The position numbers and the translations under genes are program-made. 64,000 nt of DNA from Chitinophaga niabensis (GTDB taxonomy: Bacteria > Bacteroidota > Bacteroidia > Chitinophagales > Chitinophagaceae). Under the pieces are notes generated by a model. The model saw only the letters and a program-made list of their open reading frames with translations, was not told the origin of the DNA and ran no database searches. The stretch covers positions 248,001 through 312,000 of the forward strand of contig JAFIGY010000019.1 of assembly GCA_017849435.1 (NCBI GenBank), written 5' to 3'. Positions 17,888 through 28,567 of the stretch are shown here, in pieces; position 1 is the first letter of the stretch; each line of letters starts with the position of its first letter.

Positions 17888-20362
17888 CTATACCATCCTG
17901 CCCATCAGCGGATCAGTGAACGCAGTGCTTCCCGTCTCCACATGCCCGGCATATCTTCTTTCAAAATGCGGCGCTCCTTCTACGGTAATGGATAGATCGT
18001 ACCAGCCGTAACTCTTTGTCAGCGGCAGGTTCAGCGACTGCTTCCCTCCTTTTACGAGGCGAACAACAGCAGGTTTTTCTTTGTAGGACCTGTCCTGTAT
18101 GTGGATCGTGCAGGCAGCTTTGGCTGTAAACTGAATGACCAGCGCACCTTTCTTATCATAGCCGAACGCGATATCCAGCTGTGGATCCTGCGCATCACCG
18201 GTAAACTCCCGGAAGAAGCCGTTAGGCCCATATACGGAAAGCGCATATTTTCCACCGGGGAAATGATCCAGCACCCATTCATCGGTGAGGCGGTCTCCGG
18301 CAACTACCGCGTAAGAGCGGTTTGCCATCGTTTTCGTATATGCGTTAAAGGGAGCACCTGCCGCCTGCCTGCCGAATAGCGTGTTGCCCGCCTGGAGTTG
18401 CAGCGACAGAGATTTACGATCCGGCGTCAGCGCTGCATCCGCATATAATTCATAAGGGATTGCGCAGGAAGGGCGAATGCCTGGTTCCTGTTGCGGCATT
18501 GCGGAAGATGCAGCTCCGGCAGTGATCTGCTTCACCTCCCCGGCCGTCAGTATCCTGAAGTTCGCGGGGGGATTCTTGAACCGGGCTTTATGCACACTTT
18601 CCATGAAAGCGGTTTTGTTCACCGAAGCGGGCATGGGTATCTTTTCGCCGTTCCAGGGGCGGAAGATGGATGTGAGATCGCCGCAAACAGTGCGTCGCCA
18701 TGAAGTGATATTGTCTGTCGTGATCTGTTTTTTGAGCTTGTGGCCGAGGAATCTTTCGAGGAACTGCAAATTGGAGGTATGATCAAAGACCTGCGAATTC
18801 ACAAATCCACCGCGCGTCCATGGAGACGCCACCACCATCGGCACGCGGTACCCTAACCCGATGGCGCTCTCCCGAACCCCGGAGCCCTGCGCCTGTGCAT
18901 GCCGCATTACAAATTCCGCATCCGTATCAATCCCCGCGGATACCTTGCCCGTGGCGGACTCGCCGGGCTGCGGTGCCACAAAGGGCGGAACGTGATCAAA
19001 ATATCCGTCGTTCTCATCGTACGTGAGGATGAAGATCGTTTTCTTCCATACTTCGGGGTTGTGGGTCAGGATGTCCATGACCTCGGACAGGTACCAGGCG
19101 CCATACCAGGGGGCGCCGGGGTGGTCAGAGAAATTCTCCGGCGCCACGATCCAGGAAACGGTGGGCAGCTGTCCGTTTTTCACATCCTGCCGGAACTGGT
19201 GCAGCACATCTCCTTTGGGCAGCTGCATTTCCCGGGCAACGGTACCGTCGTTATACTGAAGCGTGCTGAGCTGATGATAATCCGGATCATTCACATTTGT
19301 GGTGAAAGCTTTTTTGTGCAGCTGCTGTTCATGCGCCGGCAATGTATTGAAGGGCCGTTTCCCGATCTTGTCCAGCACTTCCTTCGTTTTTTCCAGCGCT
19401 TTACGGCGGCGGCTGATCATCTTCTCCAGTTCCGAATGCTCTTTGCTGCCAGCTGCCAGTTTGGCCAGCGCCTGTTCTTCCGCTGCGATCTTTTCCGGCA
19501 GTGTGGTCAGCAGCTTTTGCAGATATCGTTGATGCGCTTCGGAATATTCCACATGATATTGCGAGAACCACTCGATCGGGTTATCCGTGAAGTTTGCCAG
19601 CCAGGCATCCTGCTCCCCTTCAAACCCCACTCCTGCGCTGATCTCGTTCTGATAGATCTTCCATGAAACACCATTCGCTTCGAGCACTTCCGGGAATGTT
19701 TTCCAGTCCGCTTCCCTTCCATAATCCACATCCGAATTCCAGACGTTCGCTTTGGCGCTGCCTTTCGGCTCCCTGCGGATGGTGCCCGTCCAGAAGTAAA
19801 GCCTGTTGGGTGTTGTACCGGTTAACGAAGAACAGAAATGCTGATCACATACCGTGAATGCATCCGCCAAAGCATAGTAAAAAGGAAGATCCTCCCGGTT
19901 GTAGTAACCCATGGTGAGTGGCATCCTGCTGTACTCCCTGTTCCCGGAATGCTTTACATCCAGCCAGCGGTCGTGCTTCCCGCCGTTGCGCGCATCCACC
20001 TGATCCGACCAGGAATGCGGCAGCGCACTCATCCAGGTAGCTTTGGTGTCTTTTATGTTCAGACGGAAAGGGGCATACGTTTCACCGGCGGAATTCCGTT
20101 GCAGGAAAACAGGACGGCCATCTTCCATCTTCAGCGCCCGCGGATCATTGAATCCACGCACGCCCTTCAGCGTACCAAAACAATGATCGAAAGAACGGTT
20201 CTCCTGCATGAGGAACACCACATGCTCTGCATCCAGGTAACTGCTGCCGGGTGCGGGATTGATCGCCAGGGCTCTTTGGATCGTTTCGGGCAGAATGCTT
20301 GCCAGTCCGCCTGCTCCCGAGAGCAGGGCTGCTTTCCGTAGGAATTCTCTTCTCGTATCCAT
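17888..20362 (-). CDS. Phosphocholine-specific phospholipase C, Tat-exported
   Basis: 824 residues with a Tat signal (TRREFLRKAALLSGAGG) and the phosphoesterase domain typical of the PlcC/acid phosphatase family, including QENRSFDHCFGTLKGVRGF near residue 53 and FILTYDENDGYFDHVPPF near residue 395. Two C-terminal beta domains (DUF756 type) occupy about residues 620-815. It hydrolyses phosphatidylcholine-type lipids to diacylglycerol and phosphocholine in the known family. Length is normal. Transcribed alone; converges with the DUF1801 gene. Confidence 0.93.
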   Translation of the reverse strand: MDTRREFLRKAALLSGAGGLASILPETIQRALAINPAPGSSYLDAEHVVFLMQENRSFDHCFGTLKGVRGFNDPRALKMEDGRPVFLQRNSAGETYAPFRLNIKDTKATWMSALPHSWSDQVDARNGGKHDRWLDVKHSGNREYSRMPLTMGYYNREDLPFYYALADAFTVCDQHFCSSLTGTTPNRLYFWTGTIRREPKGSAKANVWNSDVDYGREADWKTFPEVLEANGVSWKIYQNEISAGVGFEGEQDAWLANFTDNPIEWFSQYHVEYSEAHQRYLQKLLTTLPEKIAAEEQALAKLAAGSKEHSELEKMISRRRKALEKTKEVLDKIGKRPFNTLPAHEQQLHKKAFTTNVNDPDYHQLSTLQYNDGTVAREMQLPKGDVLHQFRQDVKNGQLPTVSWIVAPENFSDHPGAPWYGAWYLSEVMDILTHNPEVWKKTIFILTYDENDGYFDHVPPFVAPQPGESATGKVSAGIDTDAEFVMRHAQAQGSGVRESAIGLGYRVPMVVASPWTRGGFVNSQVFDHTSNLQFLERFLGHKLKKQITTDNITSWRRTVCGDLTSIFRPWNGEKIPMPASVNKTAFMESVHKARFKNPPANFRILTAGEVKQITAGAASSAMPQQEPGIRPSCAIPYELYADAALTPDRKSLSLQLQAGNTLFGRQAAGAPFNAYTKTMANRSYAVVAGDRLTDEWVLDHFPGGKYALSVYGPNGFFREFTGDAQDPQLDIAFGYDKKGALVIQFTAKAACTIHIQDRSYKEKPAVVRLVKGGKQSLNLPLTKSYGWYDLSITVEGAPHFERRYAGHVETGSTAFTDPLMGRMV

Positions 20363-20459
20363 ATTACTGTGTTGGTGTTGGTGCGAAACGCCAAAATAAT
20401 AATATTTCCGGAATGCCCCGGTTGTGAAAAACGACCTCGCTTATCCTTTTTCAAAAAAA

Positions 20460-20491
20460 TTTGCATAATTAATCTTGATACTCTACATTTG
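20460..20491 (+). promoter_or_regulatory. Promoter of the blaI-blaR1-like operon
   Basis: TTTG at 20460-20463, 20 bases, then TACATTTG at 20484-20491: an exact fit to the Bacteroidota -33/-7 pattern. The start codon follows 26 bases after the -7 box. The -7 box overlaps the operator. Confidence 0.75.
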
Positions 20492-20494
20492 TAG
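20483..20494. promoter_or_regulatory. BlaI/MecI-type operator overlapping the -7 box
   Basis: CTACATTTGTAG is a perfect dyad with the TACA-NN-TGTA core known for BlaI/MecI binding. A further half-site TGTAGAACA lies at 20511-20518 close to the start codon. Binding by the BlaI-like protein encoded next is inferred. Confidence 0.75.
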
Positions 20495-20517
20495 AACAGC
20501 CTCTAAAAATGTAGAAC

Positions 20518-20889
20518 ATGCAATTGACGAAAGCAGAAGAGCAGGTCATGGAATATATCTGGCAGCTGGGAAAAGTGTTCATGAAAGATCTGATAGATGC
20601 ATTCCCTGATCCCAAGCCGGCCACCACTACCGTGGCCACACTGCTGAAAAGGATGCAGGACAAGGGTTTTGTGGCTTATACACTGCTCGGCAATTCCCGG
20701 GAATATTATCCGCTCGTTTCAAAAGCGGATTATTTCTCGAAGCATGTCAATGGTATCATCCGTAATTTCTTCAATGACTCACCGGCCCAGTTCGCTTCCT
20801 TCTTTACCCGGTCTGCCAACCTGACCACGAAGGAGCTGGAGGAGCTGAAAAAGATCATTGATGCCGAGATCAAAAAGAAGAAAAAATGA
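20518..20889 (+). CDS. BlaI/MecI/CopY-family transcriptional repressor
   Basis: 123-residue winged-helix repressor beginning MQLTKAEEQVMEYIWQLGKVFMKDLIDAF, with recognition region KPATTTVATLLKRMQDKGFVAY and a C-terminal helical dimerization segment. It overlaps the M56 sensor gene by four bases (20886-20889). The operator TACATTTGTA in its promoter fits autorepression relieved by the membrane protease. No beta-lactamase gene is adjacent, so the regulon is elsewhere or of another kind. Confidence 0.93.
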   Translation: MQLTKAEEQVMEYIWQLGKVFMKDLIDAFPDPKPATTTVATLLKRMQDKGFVAYTLLGNSREYYPLVSKADYFSKHVNGIIRNFFNDSPAQFASFFTRSANLTTKELEELKKIIDAEIKKKKK

Positions 20890-22229
20890 TAAGTTATCTT
20901 ATTAAAGTCATTTTGTGCTCGGGATTCCTGCTGGCGGGCTATCATCTTTTCCTCGAAAAGGAAAAAATGCATCGTTTTTCCCGGTTCTACCTGCTCTTCA
21001 GCATCCTGTTCCCATTCATCGCTCCGCTACTGAAGATCACGCGGCAGGCAACGGTATTGCCCGAACCGGGGCATATGCCGCTCTCCTTCCTTCCGGGCAA
21101 TGACACACCCGGGGTCGCCTCTTCTTCCGCCATCATTAACTGGCCGCTTACAGGGATGCTGATCGCGTATGGCGTGATCGTCCTGCTCCTGCTCACCAGG
21201 TTTACACTGAACCTGCTGTCTATCCGGCGATGCGTGCGCAAATATTCTCCGGTGGCTTACCGGGGAGCCAGGCTGATAACGATAACAGGAGAAAGCGTGC
21301 CACACGCCTTCCTGCACTACATCTTTGCTCCGGCAGGAACAGCAGAAACGCTGCTGACGCACGAGCTCGCACATGTGCGGCAGCATCACAGTCTGGATAT
21401 CCTTTTCGTGGAACTGGTGAAAACGGTTTGCTGGTTCAATCCCTTCCTGATCCTTTACAAGAGGGCCATCCGGCTTAACCACGAATTCCTTGCGGACGAC
21501 AGTGTATTGAAAGGAAAAAGCGATGTACGATCCTATCAATACCTTCTGCTGCATAACATTTGTTCATCGGGTTCCATTTCCCTTGCGAGCCATCTCAATT
21601 TCGCCATCACTAAAAAAAGACTGATCATGATGACCAAAACCACCTCGCCCCTCAAGGCCCTCAGCCGCCAGCTGATCCTCATTCCCTTCCTCGCCTCCGC
21701 CGCTTTTCTCTTTGCAACAAGCGTGGAAGCGCAACAACAACCGCCCGCCAGAAAAGCACAACTGTTCCCGGCAGGCAAAGGCGCATCCCTCACAGAACTC
21801 AAAGAGTACCAGGACGTCCTGCAGAGCAAGGGAACGAAGATCCGCTCCCGGAACGGCTTTACCGCCTACGAACTGAAAGACAAAGCAGCGACCCAACGGA
21901 TCCGGGAGATCCATCAGAAAATGACCTTCGAACAACGAAAGAATGCGCCCCAGGTACTGGCCGGAGTACTGGTAGACGTGAAAAAACCAGCGAAGATCAC
22001 TCCTACCGCGACACAACTGACCCAATGGAAAGATGCCGCCCAATATGGAATATGGATCGACGGGAAAAGGGTATCCAACGAAACATTGAACAATTACCAA
22101 CCATCAGATTTTGCTCATTATTCTGTCAGCAAACTTGCCAAAAATGCCGCGAATTATGGCAAACATTATGTGCAGGTAGATCTTTCCACTCCCAACTATT
22201 TCGAGAAGGTCTGGAAAGACCGTGAATAG
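20886..22229 (+). CDS. M56 (BlaR1-like) membrane metallopeptidase
   Basis: 447 residues. Four membrane helices are visible: residues 3-20, about 35-55, 85-110, and LILIPFLASAAFLFATSVEA near 270-290. The cytoplasmic zinc site HELAH lies in the loop before helix 4, with the downstream Glu in NHEFLADDSVL. BlaR1 uses this site to cleave BlaI. The C-terminal periplasmic part (about 290-447) is not a penicillin-binding domain: no SxxK/KTG motifs are seen, so the sensed signal is probably not a beta-lactam, and I do not recognise the fold. Confidence 0.88.
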   Translation: MISYLIKVILCSGFLLAGYHLFLEKEKMHRFSRFYLLFSILFPFIAPLLKITRQATVLPEPGHMPLSFLPGNDTPGVASSSAIINWPLTGMLIAYGVIVLLLLTRFTLNLLSIRRCVRKYSPVAYRGARLITITGESVPHAFLHYIFAPAGTAETLLTHELAHVRQHHSLDILFVELVKTVCWFNPFLILYKRAIRLNHEFLADDSVLKGKSDVRSYQYLLLHNICSSGSISLASHLNFAITKKRLIMMTKTTSPLKALSRQLILIPFLASAAFLFATSVEAQQQPPARKAQLFPAGKGASLTELKEYQDVLQSKGTKIRSRNGFTAYELKDKAATQRIREIHQKMTFEQRKNAPQVLAGVLVDVKKPAKITPTATQLTQWKDAAQYGIWIDGKRVSNETLNNYQPSDFAHYSVSKLAKNAANYGKHYVQVDLSTPNYFEKVWKDRE

Positions 22230-22231
22230 GA

Positions 22232-22855
22232 TCATGTATCCGTGAGGCCGGCAAAACGGACCTCACGGATCTCTTTCACTTCATCTTCCGTGTCTGTCGC
22301 CACCACCGCGCAATATCCTTCCTGCAGGCGCAGCACACGGGTCCGGTATTTCACTTCTTCAAAACACACCACTTCTTCCGCCGCTTCCACCAAAGCCGGT
22401 GAAACATCCGCAACGCCTTTCCCCGCCGCTTTCAGCACTGCTTCCTTACGCGTCCATATTTCCAGTGGCGTGTTCTTCCGCTGCTCGTACACCGACAGGT
22501 AATCCGCGATCACTGCGGCATCCAGCGGAACGATCTGCTCCACATCCAGTCCTACCCTCCCTGCATCCACTCCTGCAAACGCCACGAGGCTTCCGGAATG
22601 GGAAATGCTGAAATCGAGTGTAGTTCCGGGGATGAGGGGTTTGTGCGGAGGGATATGTTGCAGGTCTTTCAATGAAAATCCTTTCGTTTTCAACCATTCC
22701 TGCAACAGCAATCTTCCTGCCACCCGCAGCTGTTGCTCCTGCCAGCCTTTGTATTGCAGGATCCGCTCCCGGGAGAACAATGGCAGTTGTGCCAGCCTTT
22801 CTTCAAACAGTTGCGGCTCCCAGGGCTGATCGATCAAAGCGAATGAAATGAACAT
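22232..22855 (-). CDS. 4'-phosphopantetheinyl transferase (Sfp type)
   Basis: 207 residues. Transfers the 4'-phosphopantetheine arm of CoA to a Ser of carrier proteins. Core motifs are GLDVEQI near residue 107 (Mg-binding Asp, Glu) and WTRKEAVLKAAGKG near 142-155. It is divergent from the NRPS-like gene at 23050, whose carrier domain (Ser552) needs exactly this modification, so the pair probably works together. It ends 2 bases from the converging BlaR1-like stop. Slightly short for Sfp but within the family range. Confidence 0.92.
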   Translation of the reverse strand: MFISFALIDQPWEPQLFEERLAQLPLFSRERILQYKGWQEQQLRVAGRLLLQEWLKTKGFSLKDLQHIPPHKPLIPGTTLDFSISHSGSLVAFAGVDAGRVGLDVEQIVPLDAAVIADYLSVYEQRKNTPLEIWTRKEAVLKAAGKGVADVSPALVEAAEEVVCFEEVKYRTRVLRLQEGYCAVVATDTEDEVKEIREVRFAGLTDT

Positions 22856-23049
22856 AACGGTGTAAATGTAGCTAAATCGTATAGGATCAGGTTATCCCTC
22901 TCCTGCAAAACCATGACGCTCAAGAATGTTTTTGTTTATTCAATAAGATTTAATTAAATTTTAATTAGGATAAACCCGTCATTAAGCGAACTTAATTGGG
23001 AATTAAACCTATTTTAGCCGCTGGTCCCATATTCTATTCAATCTATTCA

Positions 23050-26000
23050 ATGAAATTGTTGAGCATTGTTCCAGGATCCCCACGTCCTGATCTGATAAGA
23101 GATGAAACGCTGGCAGAACTTTTCCGAACATCGGCCAGGCAACACAGCACCAAAACAGCGCTCGTCTTCGGCGAGCGTAGACTTACGTATGCGCAGCTGG
23201 ACAGCTGGAGTGATGCAGTAGCGGTTTTTCTGGCTTCCAGGGGTATTGGGCCCGGGCAAGCGGTAGGGATCTGGTGGCCGAGGAGTCTTGAACTGCACGT
23301 CGCCATCCTTGGCATCGTCAAATCAGGTGCCGCTTATGTGCCGCTGGACAGGGAAATGCCGGCGGAAAGAGTGGAAACGGTACTGACGGAAGTAAAAGCC
23401 TCCGCTTATTTCAGTGATCAGTCCCTGCAACTGGATTGCCCCCAATTCAACATTCCCGCTTTTAACGCTCCTGCCGCCGGAATATCGCTGCCGGCCGGCC
23501 CGCAGCCGGATAACTGGGCCTATGTGCTTTATACTTCCGGCAGTACGGGCAAACCGAAAGGTATTCCTATCAATCACCGCCAGATCTGCCATCTTATCAG
23601 AGCGGAGCAGAGCGTGATCAATATACGGGAAGAAGATTATGTGTACCAGGGCTTTTCCGTGTCGTTTGACATGTGGTGCGAGGAGACCTGGATCAGTCTT
23701 TTCGTGGGCGCTACGCTCTGGGTGGCTGATGCTGTGACCGCCCGTTCCATCGATGAACTGAGTGATGTACTGCGCCGGGAGAAGATCACGATATTGCATG
23801 CGGTGCCCAGTCTGCTGGCGGTAATGGATGATGACATCCCTTCCATCCGGCTGGTGAACGCCGGCGGAGAAGCCTGCACACCGCAGGTGCTGGCCCGCTG
23901 GTCTAAACCAACGAATATTTTTTATAATAGTTACGGTCCTACCGAAACCACCGTTACCGCTACCATGACGCCCCTCAAACCGGGCGATCCCATCACCATC
24001 GGCAGTCCGCTCCCAAACTATAACCTCGCCGTAGTGGATGCCGCTTTCAACATCGTGCCCTTCGGGGAACCGGGCGAGCTGATCATTACAGGGCCCGGCG
24101 TATGCAACGGCTATGTGAACCGGGACGATCTCACGAAAGAAAAGTTCCTGCCCAAACTGCCCGCCATGAACGGGCTGCCCGGCGACCGCTTTTATCGTAC
24201 AGGCGACGCCGTTATTATCCATCCCGATCACAGTGTGGAATTCCAGGGCAGGATCGATGACCAGATCAAACTACGCGGATATCGCATAGAACTGGGAGAA
24301 ATAGAATCGCAGCTGAATGCGCTGAACGGTGTTTCTGCCGCTGCGGTAGCCGTGAAAAAAGACAATAACAAGCAGGATCAGCTGGTAGGTTATGTACTGA
24401 TGAAGAACGGCACACTGTTCGAAGAGTCCGTTGCCCGTACCGCGCTGGCCAAAGTGCTGCCACCATATATGGTGCCGGGCGTAGTAGTGGCGCTGCCGGA
24501 AATGCCACGGCTGCCGAGCGGGAAAATAGACCGCAAATCCTTACCGGTACCGGAGGCGCTGTTACAGGCACCGGCGGAAGAAACCGGCCCCATCAATCTG
24601 TCAGACAGTGTGGGGAACAGGGTGCAGGCGGTGTTACGCAGGGTTTTTCCGGGCAAGGAGGTAGATCCTTCGCAGGATTTCTTCACCGACCTCGGCGGGC
24701 ACTCACTGCTGGCCGCCACATTTGTATCCCGGTTGAGAAAGGAAGCCGGCATTCCGCATGCTTCCCTGAAAGACGTTTATACCAACCGCCCGCTTCAGAC
24801 GTTGATCACCATTTGGGAGAAAAAAAATGAACAACAGCCTAAGGAGCAACGGATCTTCCATTCCACGCCCTGGTGGCGCTACCTGGCCTGCGGATCAGCT
24901 CAGGCCGTTGCATTACTGCTCGTTTATGGATTGTTTGCCATTCAGATACTGGTGCCCTATCTCGGGTATTACTATGTAGTATCCAGAACAGAGTCCGGCA
25001 CCGGAGACGTACATTACGCATTGATCACCGCTATCTGCCTTTTCTGCGTCATCCCTCCCTTCTTCTCCGTGTTGAGCATTATTGCCAAATGGCTGATCAT
25101 CGGAAAAATGAAAGAAGGGGACTATCCTATGTGGGGAACCTATTATTTCCGCTGGTGGATGGTGAACGTGATCCAACGCCTCGTACCGGCGCAGTTTATG
25201 AATGGTACTCCCCTCTATTCTTTCTATCTCCGGATGATGGGCGTGAAAGTTGCGCCGGATGCACAGTTGAGTGCCGTTACCATCGGTGCGGAAGATCTGA
25301 TCACCATCGGTAAGGACGTTAGCATCAGCTCACTGGCTGTGCTGAATAACGCAGTTGTAGAAGACGGTCTGTTAAAACTGCGGCGCATCACCATCGGTGA
25401 TCATGCCTACATCGGCAGCAGCGCCGTGATCTCCGGAGGAACAGTGATTGAGGACTGGGGAGAACTGCAGGATCTCAGCCATCTGCAACCCGGAAGTGTT
25501 ATCCGTGAAGGAGAAGTATGGAAAGGGAGTCCCGCCCAACGCATCGATAAGAAAAAACCGGAAGAGCTGCCACAACCACTGCGGGTATCTGTTTTCAAAA
25601 GATACCGGTTCGGACTGCTCTTCTCTTCCCTGCTGATCGTTTTCCCGCTGGTAGTATTGATCCCGTTGCTGCCTGTGCTGGTACTGCTGAACTACCTGGA
25701 TACTATTACGCCCGGGGATTACGACTTCAGTTACCTGATCTATACGCCTTTCCTCGCGATCTGCTATATCTGCATTTATGCACTGGAAACGATCCTGCTC
25801 TCCCGCCTGCTGCAAAGGAAGCTTCAACCCGGTACTTACCCGGTATACGGCTGGACCTACATCCGAAAATGGCTCGCAGATCAATTGATCTCCATGTCCC
25901 TCATCGTACTACATCCTATCTACGCTACGGTATACGTATCCACCTTCTTCCGCGCACTGGGCGCCAAAATAGGCAAGAACACCGAAATATCCACTGCCAG

Positions 26001-27012
26001 CAGCGTTACGCATCCCATGCTGGAGATCGGCAGCGAAGCGTTCATTGCGGATGCGGTAACGCTCGGGGAGGCGGACGTACGCGCACAACAACTGATCGTC
26101 AGCAAAACCACTATCGGGGATTCCAGTTTTGTGGGGAACAGCGCACTGATACCGCAAGGCTACGCCCTTCCGGGAAATATGCTGATCGGAGTATTAAGCA
26201 CCCCGCCCACCACTGAACAAATGAATGCGGATAAAACGAGGGACTGGTTCGGCTCCCCTGCAATTGCCCTGCCGGTGCGGCAGGACAGTGGAAGTTTCCC
26301 CGCCTATCTCACCACCACCCCCACCATTGCCCGGAAGATATTCAGGGCTATTGTGGAATTCATCAGGATCATCATTCCCGAGACCGTCGTGATCTGCTGC
26401 AGTGTGCTTTTCATTGCGTATGAGCATGATCTCATCAAGAACAGATCACTCCTTGAGATTGGCAGGGAAATATACAAGCTGCCTTTCTATTATCTCTTCT
26501 TCCTCGGCTTACCAGCCTTGCTGGTAACGGCATTACTGAAATGGGTGTTCGTGGGGAAATATAAAAAGATGCAGAAACCGATGTGGACGCATAAAGTATG
26601 GCGCAGCGAAGCTATCACCACCACTTACGAAGCGCTGGCCGTACCCTTCCTGCTGGAATACCTGAAAGGCACGCCTTTCCTTCCGATGGCCCTGCGCCTG
26701 CTGGGTGTAAAGATCGGGAAGAAAGTATGGCTGAATACAACGGACATCACGGAATATGACATGGTGTCGATCGGCAGCGAAACCGCCCTGAATGACGACT
26801 GCGGACCACAGACCCACTTGTTCGAAGACCGGGTGATGAAAGTAGGACCGGTGAAGATCGGTTCCCGGTGCAGCGTGGGCGCGAGAAGCATCATCCTGTA
26901 CGATAGCGAGATCGGTGACAATACAAAGCTGGAGCCGCTTTCACTCGTCATGAAAGGCGAAAATCTGCCTGCCGGCGAAATCTGGACCGGAAGCCCCGTT
27001 CGGTCCGCCTAA
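23050..27012 (+). CDS. Poly-epsilon-lysine-synthetase-like NRPS (A-T-[TM2-C]x3)
   Basis: 1320 residues from the ATG at 23050; a TTG at 22996 would add 18 unlikely residues. Domain order: adenylation (about 10-490; YTSGSTGKPKG, YGPTETT, YRTGD, PSGKIDRKSL), carrier domain with FTDLGGHSLLA (Ser552), then three repeats of two membrane helices plus a left-handed beta-helix-like soluble domain (helices near 611-690, 853-925, 1100-1165; soluble parts near 725-845, 955-1065, 1190-1320). This is the architecture of Streptomyces Pls, which joins L-lysine into epsilon-polylysine, and of the TIGR02353-type terminal domain. No condensation domain of the usual HHxxxDG type is present. Activated by the divergent transferase. 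Confidence 0.9.
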   Translation: MKLLSIVPGSPRPDLIRDETLAELFRTSARQHSTKTALVFGERRLTYAQLDSWSDAVAVFLASRGIGPGQAVGIWWPRSLELHVAILGIVKSGAAYVPLDREMPAERVETVLTEVKASAYFSDQSLQLDCPQFNIPAFNAPAAGISLPAGPQPDNWAYVLYTSGSTGKPKGIPINHRQICHLIRAEQSVINIREEDYVYQGFSVSFDMWCEETWISLFVGATLWVADAVTARSIDELSDVLRREKITILHAVPSLLAVMDDDIPSIRLVNAGGEACTPQVLARWSKPTNIFYNSYGPTETTVTATMTPLKPGDPITIGSPLPNYNLAVVDAAFNIVPFGEPGELIITGPGVCNGYVNRDDLTKEKFLPKLPAMNGLPGDRFYRTGDAVIIHPDHSVEFQGRIDDQIKLRGYRIELGEIESQLNALNGVSAAAVAVKKDNNKQDQLVGYVLMKNGTLFEESVARTALAKVLPPYMVPGVVVALPEMPRLPSGKIDRKSLPVPEALLQAPAEETGPINLSDSVGNRVQAVLRRVFPGKEVDPSQDFFTDLGGHSLLAATFVSRLRKEAGIPHASLKDVYTNRPLQTLITIWEKKNEQQPKEQRIFHSTPWWRYLACGSAQAVALLLVYGLFAIQILVPYLGYYYVVSRTESGTGDVHYALITAICLFCVIPPFFSVLSIIAKWLIIGKMKEGDYPMWGTYYFRWWMVNVIQRLVPAQFMNGTPLYSFYLRMMGVKVAPDAQLSAVTIGAEDLITIGKDVSISSLAVLNNAVVEDGLLKLRRITIGDHAYIGSSAVISGGTVIEDWGELQDLSHLQPGSVIREGEVWKGSPAQRIDKKKPEELPQPLRVSVFKRYRFGLLFSSLLIVFPLVVLIPLLPVLVLLNYLDTITPGDYDFSYLIYTPFLAICYICIYALETILLSRLLQRKLQPGTYPVYGWTYIRKWLADQLISMSLIVLHPIYATVYVSTFFRALGAKIGKNTEISTASSVTHPMLEIGSEAFIADAVTLGEADVRAQQLIVSKTTIGDSSFVGNSALIPQGYALPGNMLIGVLSTPPTTEQMNADKTRDWFGSPAIALPVRQDSGSFPAYLTTTPTIARKIFRAIVEFIRIIIPETVVICCSVLFIAYEHDLIKNRSLLEIGREIYKLPFYYLFFLGLPALLVTALLKWVFVGKYKKMQKPMWTHKVWRSEAITTTYEALAVPFLLEYLKGTPFLPMALRLLGVKIGKKVWLNTTDITEYDMVSIGSETALNDDCGPQTHLFEDRVMKVGPVKIGSRCSVGARSIILYDSEIGDNTKLEPLSLVMKGENLPAGEIWTGSPVRSA

Positions 27013-27118
27013 AAGCATACGGGAAAAATACGGTATTGTTTCATGGGTTTCTCCCCTCGTTGTAACGATGGGGACAGGGTACGTTTGTGAAAGATTTTCA
27101 CCCCTAAATGTACCCTAT

Positions 27119-28567
27119 ATGAAAAAAACACCAGCGCTACTGGGCTTACTGGCCTGTTCTTCTCTTTGTTTTGCGCAACAGAAGATCATCACTTACGACT
27201 GGAAAAACGGGCCGCTGACGGGGGATACCCTCGTAGAGAAAATAAAGGAAGGTACTTCCATCAGCATTCATTACATCAACATCAATCCCTTCGCCTTCAA
27301 TTCCAACCTGAAGATCACGGATATTAACCGGGACTACCAGGACGGAATGCAGGCCTGGACCAGTGCCATGGGTATTATTGCGGGAGGGAAAAGTACGCCG
27401 CCGGAGCAATCCGATAAGGAAACTCATAAAGCATGGCAGGGACATGATGTATCCCTCCCTGAGTATAAGGATTTCATTGAAGAAAGGAACGAACGGCTGG
27501 CATCCATTGAGCAGCGTTTTAACACACTTCAGGAGCGGATAGCCAGGATCAACGCGGTAATGGGTCTCGACACCGTGATCAAAATGGCCGCCAATGACCC
27601 TCACATTTATAGTAAAGAGGATATGCAGGAGTTCCTGTTCAGTATTGTGAAAGGGATTGTTTCCCCTGCAGATATTCCCAAAGATGTCAATAACGAACTC
27701 AACGAAATCAACACCAAACTGGGAGAAATTAAACAATCCATCATCTACCTCGAAGGACTGCTCCGGCAAACGAAATTCAAAATTCCACCCGGCGAACTGA
27801 AGAAGACTGCTGACCTTGCCACAGCCCTTCAAAAAAAGGCCGATGAGCTTATTCGTACCTACACTGGCGAAAATGCCCGAAAACTGCTCCGGAATGCCTA
27901 TATCATGAGCCGCAACAGCTACAACCTGTTGAACACACCCTTCATACTGATTGGAAAGGAAATACGCCCCGCGCTGGGAGATTATACTGAACTCAAAGAT
28001 GAAATAAAAGACAACAGCGGTAAAGTTCATCGCACTATTACACACAAACTGAAAACCTTTGGAGGAAAGCGCGTTGATTTCAGCATCGGGCCGGCCATTA
28101 TCATCGGTGGTAACGGTGCGGAATATTCGATCAGAAAAAATCCTGCAGACGCTGAAAAAGGACCGGACACCGCCAATGCCATCTTACACAAAGACGGGAA
28201 GAATACGCTTTTAAAATTCTCCCCGGTAGTCATGGCACATTGGTACAAAAATTCCAAAGATCACGAAGTGCAATACATGTTCTCACTCGGGCTTGCCCCG
28301 GATTTCTCTGCCATAGCCAACACAAGGGTGTTTGTTGGCGGCGGGATAGGGTTCCCCGAAACAATAGGATTGCTACGCAGGCTGGTGCTGAACGCCGGAC
28401 TGTCTGTCGGTAATGCAGATGTATTGAAAAGCAGGTACCGCGATTGGGATAACTACAAACGGTTTGTGGACGTGAAAGACGAGGAACTTACTACAAAGGC
28501 CCTCCGGCTGGGCGGCTTTGTGTCTTTCACCTACAACCTGGGCGGCAAAGGGCATGGCGATAAATAA
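27119..28567 (+). CDS. Exported protein of unknown function with central coiled coil
   Basis: 482 residues from ATG 27119 (signal peptide MKKTPALLGLLACSSLCFAQQ); an earlier in-frame start at 27068 would bury the signal peptide and is rejected. The N-terminal part contains IHYININPFAFNSNL, a pattern frequent in Bacteroidota surface proteins. Residues about 120-270 are helical and Glu/Lys rich (coiled coil likely), and the C-terminal third looks like beta strands of a membrane barrel or porin-like domain (KRVDFSIGPAIIIGGNG, HEVQYMFSLGLAPDFSAI, RLGGFVSFTYNLGGKG). No family recognised. It follows the NRPS-like gene after 106 bases and may or may not share its transcript. Confidence 0.7.
   Translation: MKKTPALLGLLACSSLCFAQQKIITYDWKNGPLTGDTLVEKIKEGTSISIHYININPFAFNSNLKITDINRDYQDGMQAWTSAMGIIAGGKSTPPEQSDKETHKAWQGHDVSLPEYKDFIEERNERLASIEQRFNTLQERIARINAVMGLDTVIKMAANDPHIYSKEDMQEFLFSIVKGIVSPADIPKDVNNELNEINTKLGEIKQSIIYLEGLLRQTKFKIPPGELKKTADLATALQKKADELIRTYTGENARKLLRNAYIMSRNSYNLLNTPFILIGKEIRPALGDYTELKDEIKDNSGKVHRTITHKLKTFGGKRVDFSIGPAIIIGGNGAEYSIRKNPADAEKGPDTANAILHKDGKNTLLKFSPVVMAHWYKNSKDHEVQYMFSLGLAPDFSAIANTRVFVGGGIGFPETIGLLRRLVLNAGLSVGNADVLKSRYRDWDNYKRFVDVKDEELTTKALRLGGFVSFTYNLGGKGHGDK

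Follow-up and report, generated by a model that had tools for sequence, protein, structure and literature searches.

Which amino acid does a Pls/PosA-family non-ribosomal peptide synthetase join to itself in Chitinophaga niabensis, a bacterium of the Bacteroidota? The gene in question lies on contig JAFIGY010000019.1 (assembly GCA_017849435.1), within a stretch of 64,000 nucleotides (positions 248,001 to 312,000) that was analysed as a whole and is called the window here. The original prediction for this locus, made from the sequence alone, pointed to an enzyme built like Pls, the epsilon-poly-L-lysine synthetase of Streptomyces, and put its emphasis on lysine. As set out below, the family and the general class of product stand, and the substrate pocket favours ornithine over lysine. 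On this pocket, which resembles that of PosA from Acinetobacter baumannii, the gene probably encodes a delta-poly-L-ornithine synthetase.

The synthetase and its substrate pocket

The open reading frame runs from 22996 to 27012 on the forward strand, and a probable ATG start at 23050 gives a protein of 1320 amino acids. Its best NCBIfam match is TIGR02353 ('Pls/PosA family non-ribosomal peptide synthetase'), which scores 658.8 bits against a cut-off of 423.1 and spans residues 617–1317, or positions 2–695 of the 695 in the profile; this is the C-terminal NRPS_term_dom at full length. Pfam matches in the protein are AMP-binding PF00501, PF13193, the carrier PF00550 and hexapeptide repeats (Hexapep), with the adenylation domain bounded at residues 25–355/417–492 and the carrier domain at 524–568. 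Given these scores, chance is not a plausible explanation, and the protein is a member of the known Pls/PosA family, which an NCBI family model already covers. Its parts are as follows.

23050..27012, + strand: Pls/PosA-family synthetase, predicted delta-poly-L-ornithine synthetase, 1320 amino acids (TIGR02353 match and open reading frame)
23050..24564, + strand: adenylation domain (AMP-binding, 253 bits; alignment to PosA 8G95 and Pls 7WEW)
24592..24819, + strand: carrier (T) domain, approximate bounds (PP-binding; codon of Ser552 at 24703-24705)
24871..25098, + strand: membrane helix pair 1, residues about 608-683 (AlphaFold2 model; hydropathy)
25243..25569, + strand: left-handed beta-helix domain C1, approximate bounds (model; beta-helix PDB matches)
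25591..25812, + strand: membrane helix pair 2, residues about 848-921 (model; hydropathy)
25960..26274, + strand: left-handed beta-helix domain C2, approximate bounds (model; homologous to C1 and C3)
26326..26553, + strand: membrane helix pair 3, residues about 1093-1168 (model; hydropathy)
26704..27000, + strand: left-handed beta-helix domain C3, approximate bounds (model; repeat homology; Hexapep)
26809..26832, + strand: QTHLFEDR motif, residues 1254-1261, candidate catalytic site (conservation)

The modelled order is therefore an adenylation domain, a carrier domain and then three units of two membrane helices followed by a left-handed beta-helix, and the Pls-like architecture originally claimed is borne out by Pfam, by TIGR02353 and by the AlphaFold2 model alike. 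The same architecture has been published for Pls (PDB 7WEW) and is common to PosA (PDB 8G95-8G98), a proven delta-poly-L-ornithine synthetase (PMC10522769). No classical Condensation domain (PF00668) was reported by the Pfam scan of the window proteins, and a search of the whole genome likewise gave no match to such a domain, the positive control matching in 4 of 14.

The substrate pocket is formed by D207, M208, E211, H250, N270, G272, S294, V302, T303 and K492 and reads DMEHNGSVTK, as compared with DMEHNGTVSK in PosA. Eight of the ten positions are identical, and the other two are a T-to-S and an S-to-T exchange that keep the hydroxyls. Over the first nine positions, the window enzyme reads DMEHNGSVT, PosA DMEHNGTVS and Pls DAESIGTVV; the tenth is Lys both in the window enzyme and in the A. 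baumannii locus (L141), with which the C-terminal region shares 39.8% identity. When the pocket stretch was used as a query, the best PDB match was PosA (182.1 bits, 48.5% identity) and the next Pls (113.5 bits, 42.9%).

The published work on PosA gives these letters their meaning. D217 and E221, with which D207 and E211 of the window enzyme align, are essential; T304 and S313 bind the terminal amine; and Met218 sets chain length, the M218A exchange lifting lysine efficiency about 8-fold where the wild type yields no lysine polymer (PMC10522769). Since the window enzyme keeps the Met and has Ser and Thr in place of the PosA Thr and Ser, ornithine is favoured. A neutral amino acid, which would have told against the original prediction, is not what the pocket suggests, for the diamino-binding Asp and Glu are both kept.

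Comparison with related loci points the same way. A scan of public genomes found at least 586 stretches encoding relatives, and the best 80 were kept, so the resulting set leans to close relatives. It held 107 loci (the window, 22 from its family, 4 others from the phylum and 80 named ones) and 10 plasmid loci; removal of redundancy at 97% identity or more left 99 loci and the 10 plasmid loci, or 109 sequences. All but one of the best 80 stretches were titled Bacteroidota or taxa within it (Pedobacter, Mucilaginibacter, Chitinophaga, Chryseobacterium, Elizabethkingia); the remaining one (L135), titled as a Phycisphaerales metagenome-assembled genome, shares 97% identity or more with L041, whose genome belongs to the window's own family. 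Pockets were counted in 95 of the 99 non-redundant sequences, the window included, four being without the pocket region: 60 read DMEHNGSVTK, 28 DMEHNGSVSK, three DMEHNGTVTK, one DMEHKGTVTK, one DMESNGSVSK and two DAESIG[ST]VIK. The pattern DMEHNG[ST]V[ST]K is thus found in 91/95, a D-M-E start in 93/95 and a lysine-type pocket in 2/95, while among the plasmid loci only Acinetobacter and Sphingomonas have a D-M-E pocket (2/10; L150 was unaligned there). When 40 of the 109 sequences were placed in a midpoint-rooted tree, PosA, Azospirillum and Rhizobium fell into one group (support 1.0) with the window enzyme and 27 others from the Bacteroidota set. The two sequences with the lysine-type pocket (L044 and L057, whose genomes belong to the window's family and class) fall outside this clade, and both polymer types may therefore occur in the phylum.

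Several observations weigh against an ornithine substrate. With the full-length query, the top PDB match is linear gramicidin synthetase (491.8 bits, in two stretches), ahead of PosA (342) and Pls (288). Over the whole adenylation domain, identity is higher to Rhizobium (46.9%) and Azospirillum (45.7%) than to PosA (42.7%), and those two have a different pocket, DLEDIG, a type listed among the unassigned ones (PMC10522769). PosA itself stands nearest to Rhizobium and Azospirillum in the tree, so more than one type of pocket occurs within its clade. The residue after the pocket Met is Trp in 93 of the 95 complete-pocket sequences, the window enzyme among them, and Ser in PosA. The efficiency of PosA falls 33-fold in T304A and 183-fold in S313A (PMC10522769), so that Ser/Thr swaps at these positions could shift specificity. 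Finally, no ornithine-supply gene was recognised near the synthetase, nor any export or degradation gene, the latter two in agreement with the original prediction.

Some of these points could conceivably indicate another diamino or basic monomer, such as 2,4-diaminobutyrate, beta-lysine, D-ornithine or a hydroxylated or methylated ornithine. The Trp beside the pocket Met and the two varying Ser/Thr positions would fit this, and D-ornithine is accepted by PosA (PMC10522769). We nevertheless consider such a monomer unlikely. Synthetases for poly-diaminopropionate and poly-diaminobutyrate have Phe at the second pocket position (PMC10522769), and no aminotransferase or radical-SAM family was found among the 23 window proteins scanned with Pfam. 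On a Streptomyces plasmid (L144:6238-8824), a synthetase with the pocket DFECLSAVTK is followed by genes annotated as diaminobutyrate transaminase and aspartate kinase; this is predicted to be a polydiaminobutyrate locus with precursor supply, and its pocket is not that of the window enzyme.

That the enzyme is an epsilon-poly-L-lysine synthetase, as first emphasised, is more doubtful still. It shares the architecture and family of Pls, and the diamino-binding Asp and Glu are common to both. Alignment with Pls, however, places Met208 where Pls has Ala, at the position that governs chain length, and His-Asn where Pls has Ser-Ile, so that the D-A-E-S-I-G series of Pls is absent; the behaviour of M218A and of wild-type PosA described above (PMC10522769) tells against lysine in the same way. 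The two Bacteroidota sequences that do carry the lysine-type pocket indicate that lysine and ornithine types are distinct. Lysine was accordingly set aside as first choice on the pocket, which resembles PosA and not Pls when read against the mutational work; what remains of the polylysine-type claim is the family and a cationic diamino acid as the class of substrate.

The carrier domain and the C-terminal beta-helices

If ornithine is activated by the adenylation domain, it would be loaded on the carrier domain. The serine expected to bear phosphopantetheine was indeed found at residue 552, as claimed, within DLGGHSLLAA, and it is invariant in the 108 sequences counted (of 109 non-redundant). 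An AlphaFold2 model of residues 601-1320 (720 amino acids; 30-sequence alignment) reached a mean predicted local distance difference test (pLDDT) of 88.5 and a predicted template-modelling score (pTM) of 0.89. In the model, two long helices are followed by a strand-rich domain, three times over, which is what had been expected of the three soluble domains.

The three repeats are mutually homologous (hhalign probability 99.5-99.9). Sequence and fold searches of the C-terminal part returned gamma-carbonic anhydrases, hexapeptide acyltransferases and similar beta-helix proteins (among the best 60 of 64 matches by sequence and the best 50 of 506 by fold). These best 50 fold matches, all of which we take to be left-handed beta-helix proteins, have template-modelling scores of 0.09-0.17 over the whole query, low values because each target covers just a part of the model. 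The predicted structure is in accord with the three-fold beta-helix arrangement modelled for PosA (PMC10522769).

The residues conserved among C domains, whose loss would have spoken against the assignment, are present in the soluble domains. The motif QTHLFEDR in the third beta-helix is shared with PosA and shows no variation among the 30 sequences of one alignment; its Q and H (Q-x-H) are kept in all 13 printed alignment rows, including Actinomycetota and Alphaproteobacteria, while the other letters vary. From this conservation, we infer a possible catalytic role.

A further reading, the least probable of the alternatives, is that no polymer is made and that the beta-helix domains serve as an ornithinyl transferase, passing one activated ornithine on to an acceptor in the membrane (a lipid or envelope component). 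This would suit an acyltransferase-like fold with membrane helices and the lack of a recognised exporter or degrading enzyme nearby. Against it, PosA combines a TIGR02353-type domain like this one with an almost identical pocket and yields a homopolymer in vitro (PMC10522769), and C-domain motifs are common to the window enzyme and the A. baumannii sequence.

A delta-poly-L-ornithine synthetase could work in the following way. The neighbouring phosphopantetheinyl transferase, presumed to be its partner, would place phosphopantetheine on Ser552. The adenylation domain would adenylate L-ornithine, if the pocket is read correctly, and load it on the carrier as a thioester. Six membrane helices would carry the three beta-helices, packed as a pseudo-trimer, and this part would hold free ornithine or the growing chain, whose acceptor amino group would attack the thioester. 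Ornithines would thus be joined by isopeptide bonds to a short cationic polymer. The architecture, the carrier serine, the pocket residues and the common fold of the repeats are established at the level of sequence and modelling; the iterative making of a cationic homopolymer is a prediction.

Neighbouring genes

Two kinds of genes recur beside synthetases of this type, as found by clustering open reading frames of at least 90 amino acids within 6 kb in the 99 non-redundant loci.

22232..22855, - strand: Sfp-type 4'-phosphopantetheinyl transferase (PPTase), divergent from the window synthetase (PF01648, 28.0 bits; linked in 32/99 loci)
L067:10158-10691: example of a GNAT acetyltransferase (Chitinophaga polysaccharea)

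The divergent Sfp-type transferase of the original prediction is present, with a gap of 194 bases and not 195, as the gene ends at 22855. Its PF01648 match is modest (cut-off 25), and the NCBIfam scan gave no model over its cut-off. VGLDVE and WTRKEAVLKA in its sequence are what we take to be Sfp-type signatures. The window genome has two more PPTases, of 123 (AcpS-sized) and 212 amino acids.

The PPTase is the most frequent neighbour family, found in 32/99 loci, the window included, and in 27 of the 76 loci with 1.5 kb or more of flanking sequence on each side. It is divergent upstream in 21, convergent downstream in eight and co-directional downstream in three, and such varied arrangements suggest functional linkage rather than simple inheritance; a binomial figure for the adjacency assumes independent loci and overstates it. 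Counting against a fixed partnership, 67 of the 99 loci (49 of the 76) have no PPTase nearby. The window synthetase, with its adjacent PPTase gene, differs from posA, which is described as a single-gene operon (PMC10522769). An annotated PPTase also adjoins the synthetase in 3/9 annotated plasmid loci, in a gene table that is incomplete. In the alphaproteobacterial plasmid loci of Sphingomonas (L142), Rhizobium (L146) and Shinella (L149) it stands directly beside, as in the window, although downstream and co-directional there; the pocket reads DMEHNGTVTK in L142 and differs from that of the window enzyme in the other two.

A profile of ten linked PPTases gave some match in 137/147 genomes of the family, mostly weak (among the matches listed), and in the window genome it scored 225.8 bits for the linked protein versus 65.3 for that of 212 amino acids. 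At the genome level, matches above 85 bits occurred in at least 13/24 genomes with a synthetase versus at least 14/123 others (Fisher p 1.1e-5); this association was not relied on because 9 of the 13 were rows of the search model, and the counts without them are 4/15 versus 14/123. The neighbouring PPTase probably activates the synthetase; as for it being the enzyme's 'own', the association stands, and dedication is no more than plausible, considering the two other PPTases of the genome and the many loci without one.

Next in frequency comes a gene for a GNAT acetyltransferase (PF00583), which lies downstream on the same strand in 21/99 loci at a median gap of 19 bases. PPTase and GNAT occur together in seven loci, and both are present in the Sphingomonas plasmid locus. 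No GNAT stands beside the window gene, and a search of the genome, run without a positive control, found no homologue. GNATs are self-resistance factors for other cationic peptides, as reported in papers on paenilamicin and odilorhabdin, so self-protection is a reasonable guess, and the linked GNAT is a candidate tailoring or self-protection gene.

Other neighbours were also noted. A transglutaminase-like gene (L107:10680-11525) lies downstream and convergent in 12 loci, of which 10 carry a Mucilaginibacter title, and in 10 loci it is followed by another conserved gene; this may be ordinary synteny. In the window, the gene that comes directly after the synthetase (27068-28567) encodes 499 amino acids with a signal-like N-terminus by eye. 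It was left out of the system because neither Pfam nor NCBIfam gave a match, the related loci compared held no homologue, and matches occurred in only 3/60 family genomes (its own and two weak ones). A gene for phosphocholine-specific phospholipase C (TIGR03396) stands next to a divergent pair of BlaI-type repressor and M56 peptidase (17888-22229). The segment 36001-42000, with a G+C content of about 0.40-0.42 versus mostly about 0.50 around it, holds genes for a hexapeptide acyltransferase, an NAD-dependent epimerase, an S15-like hydrolase and an AraC-type regulator, and was possibly acquired.

Distribution and significance

The window genome has one Pls/PosA member over the cut-off. Members occur in 24/147 genomes of the same family, its own included, and in 6/395 drawn from the phylum, which include its own and one more of the family. 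Presence is patchy, since the family set contains two other genomes of this genus and neither has a member. A scan of viral contigs found no relative of the full synthetase protein.

To our knowledge, few natural cationic homopolymers are known. The PosA polymer has been called the first reported from bacteria other than Actinomycetes, and the main text of that paper, which does not contain 'Bacteroid', yet reports homologues in many bacterial phyla (PMC10522769). In a collection from cheese and skin, Pls matches at a 40% identity cut-off are reported only for some genera and in no other phyla (PMC8117764). The titles and abstract openings of the literature matches listed mention no characterised Pls/PosA enzyme from Bacteroidota, and the main texts of two Bacteroidota natural-product papers contain no NAPAA (non-alpha poly-amino acid), poly-amino, polylysine, ornithine or Pls. 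Genome-mining papers list the NAPAA class, so automatic labels of such clusters in the phylum may exist.

What is new here is that the pocket is of the ornithine type almost throughout the Bacteroidota set, and that PPTase and GNAT genes are linked to the synthetase. From its occurrence in loci titled Chitinophaga, Mucilaginibacter, Pedobacter, Chryseobacterium and other taxa, one would predict that environmental Bacteroidota share a product. The locus set also supplies enzymes for probing the role of such polymers, with a PPTase as possible activator and a GNAT as possible tailoring partner. A more tentative and rather doubtful proposal is that compact polyornithine systems, consisting of an ornithine-type Pls/PosA synthetase and its dedicated PPTase, are widespread in the phylum, and that in sister lineages a co-transcribed GNAT adds acetyl groups to the polymer or to its precursor, as a cap or to protect the producer. 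If true, the Bacteroidota would make a cationic isopeptide polymer, of which we found no report from the phylum.

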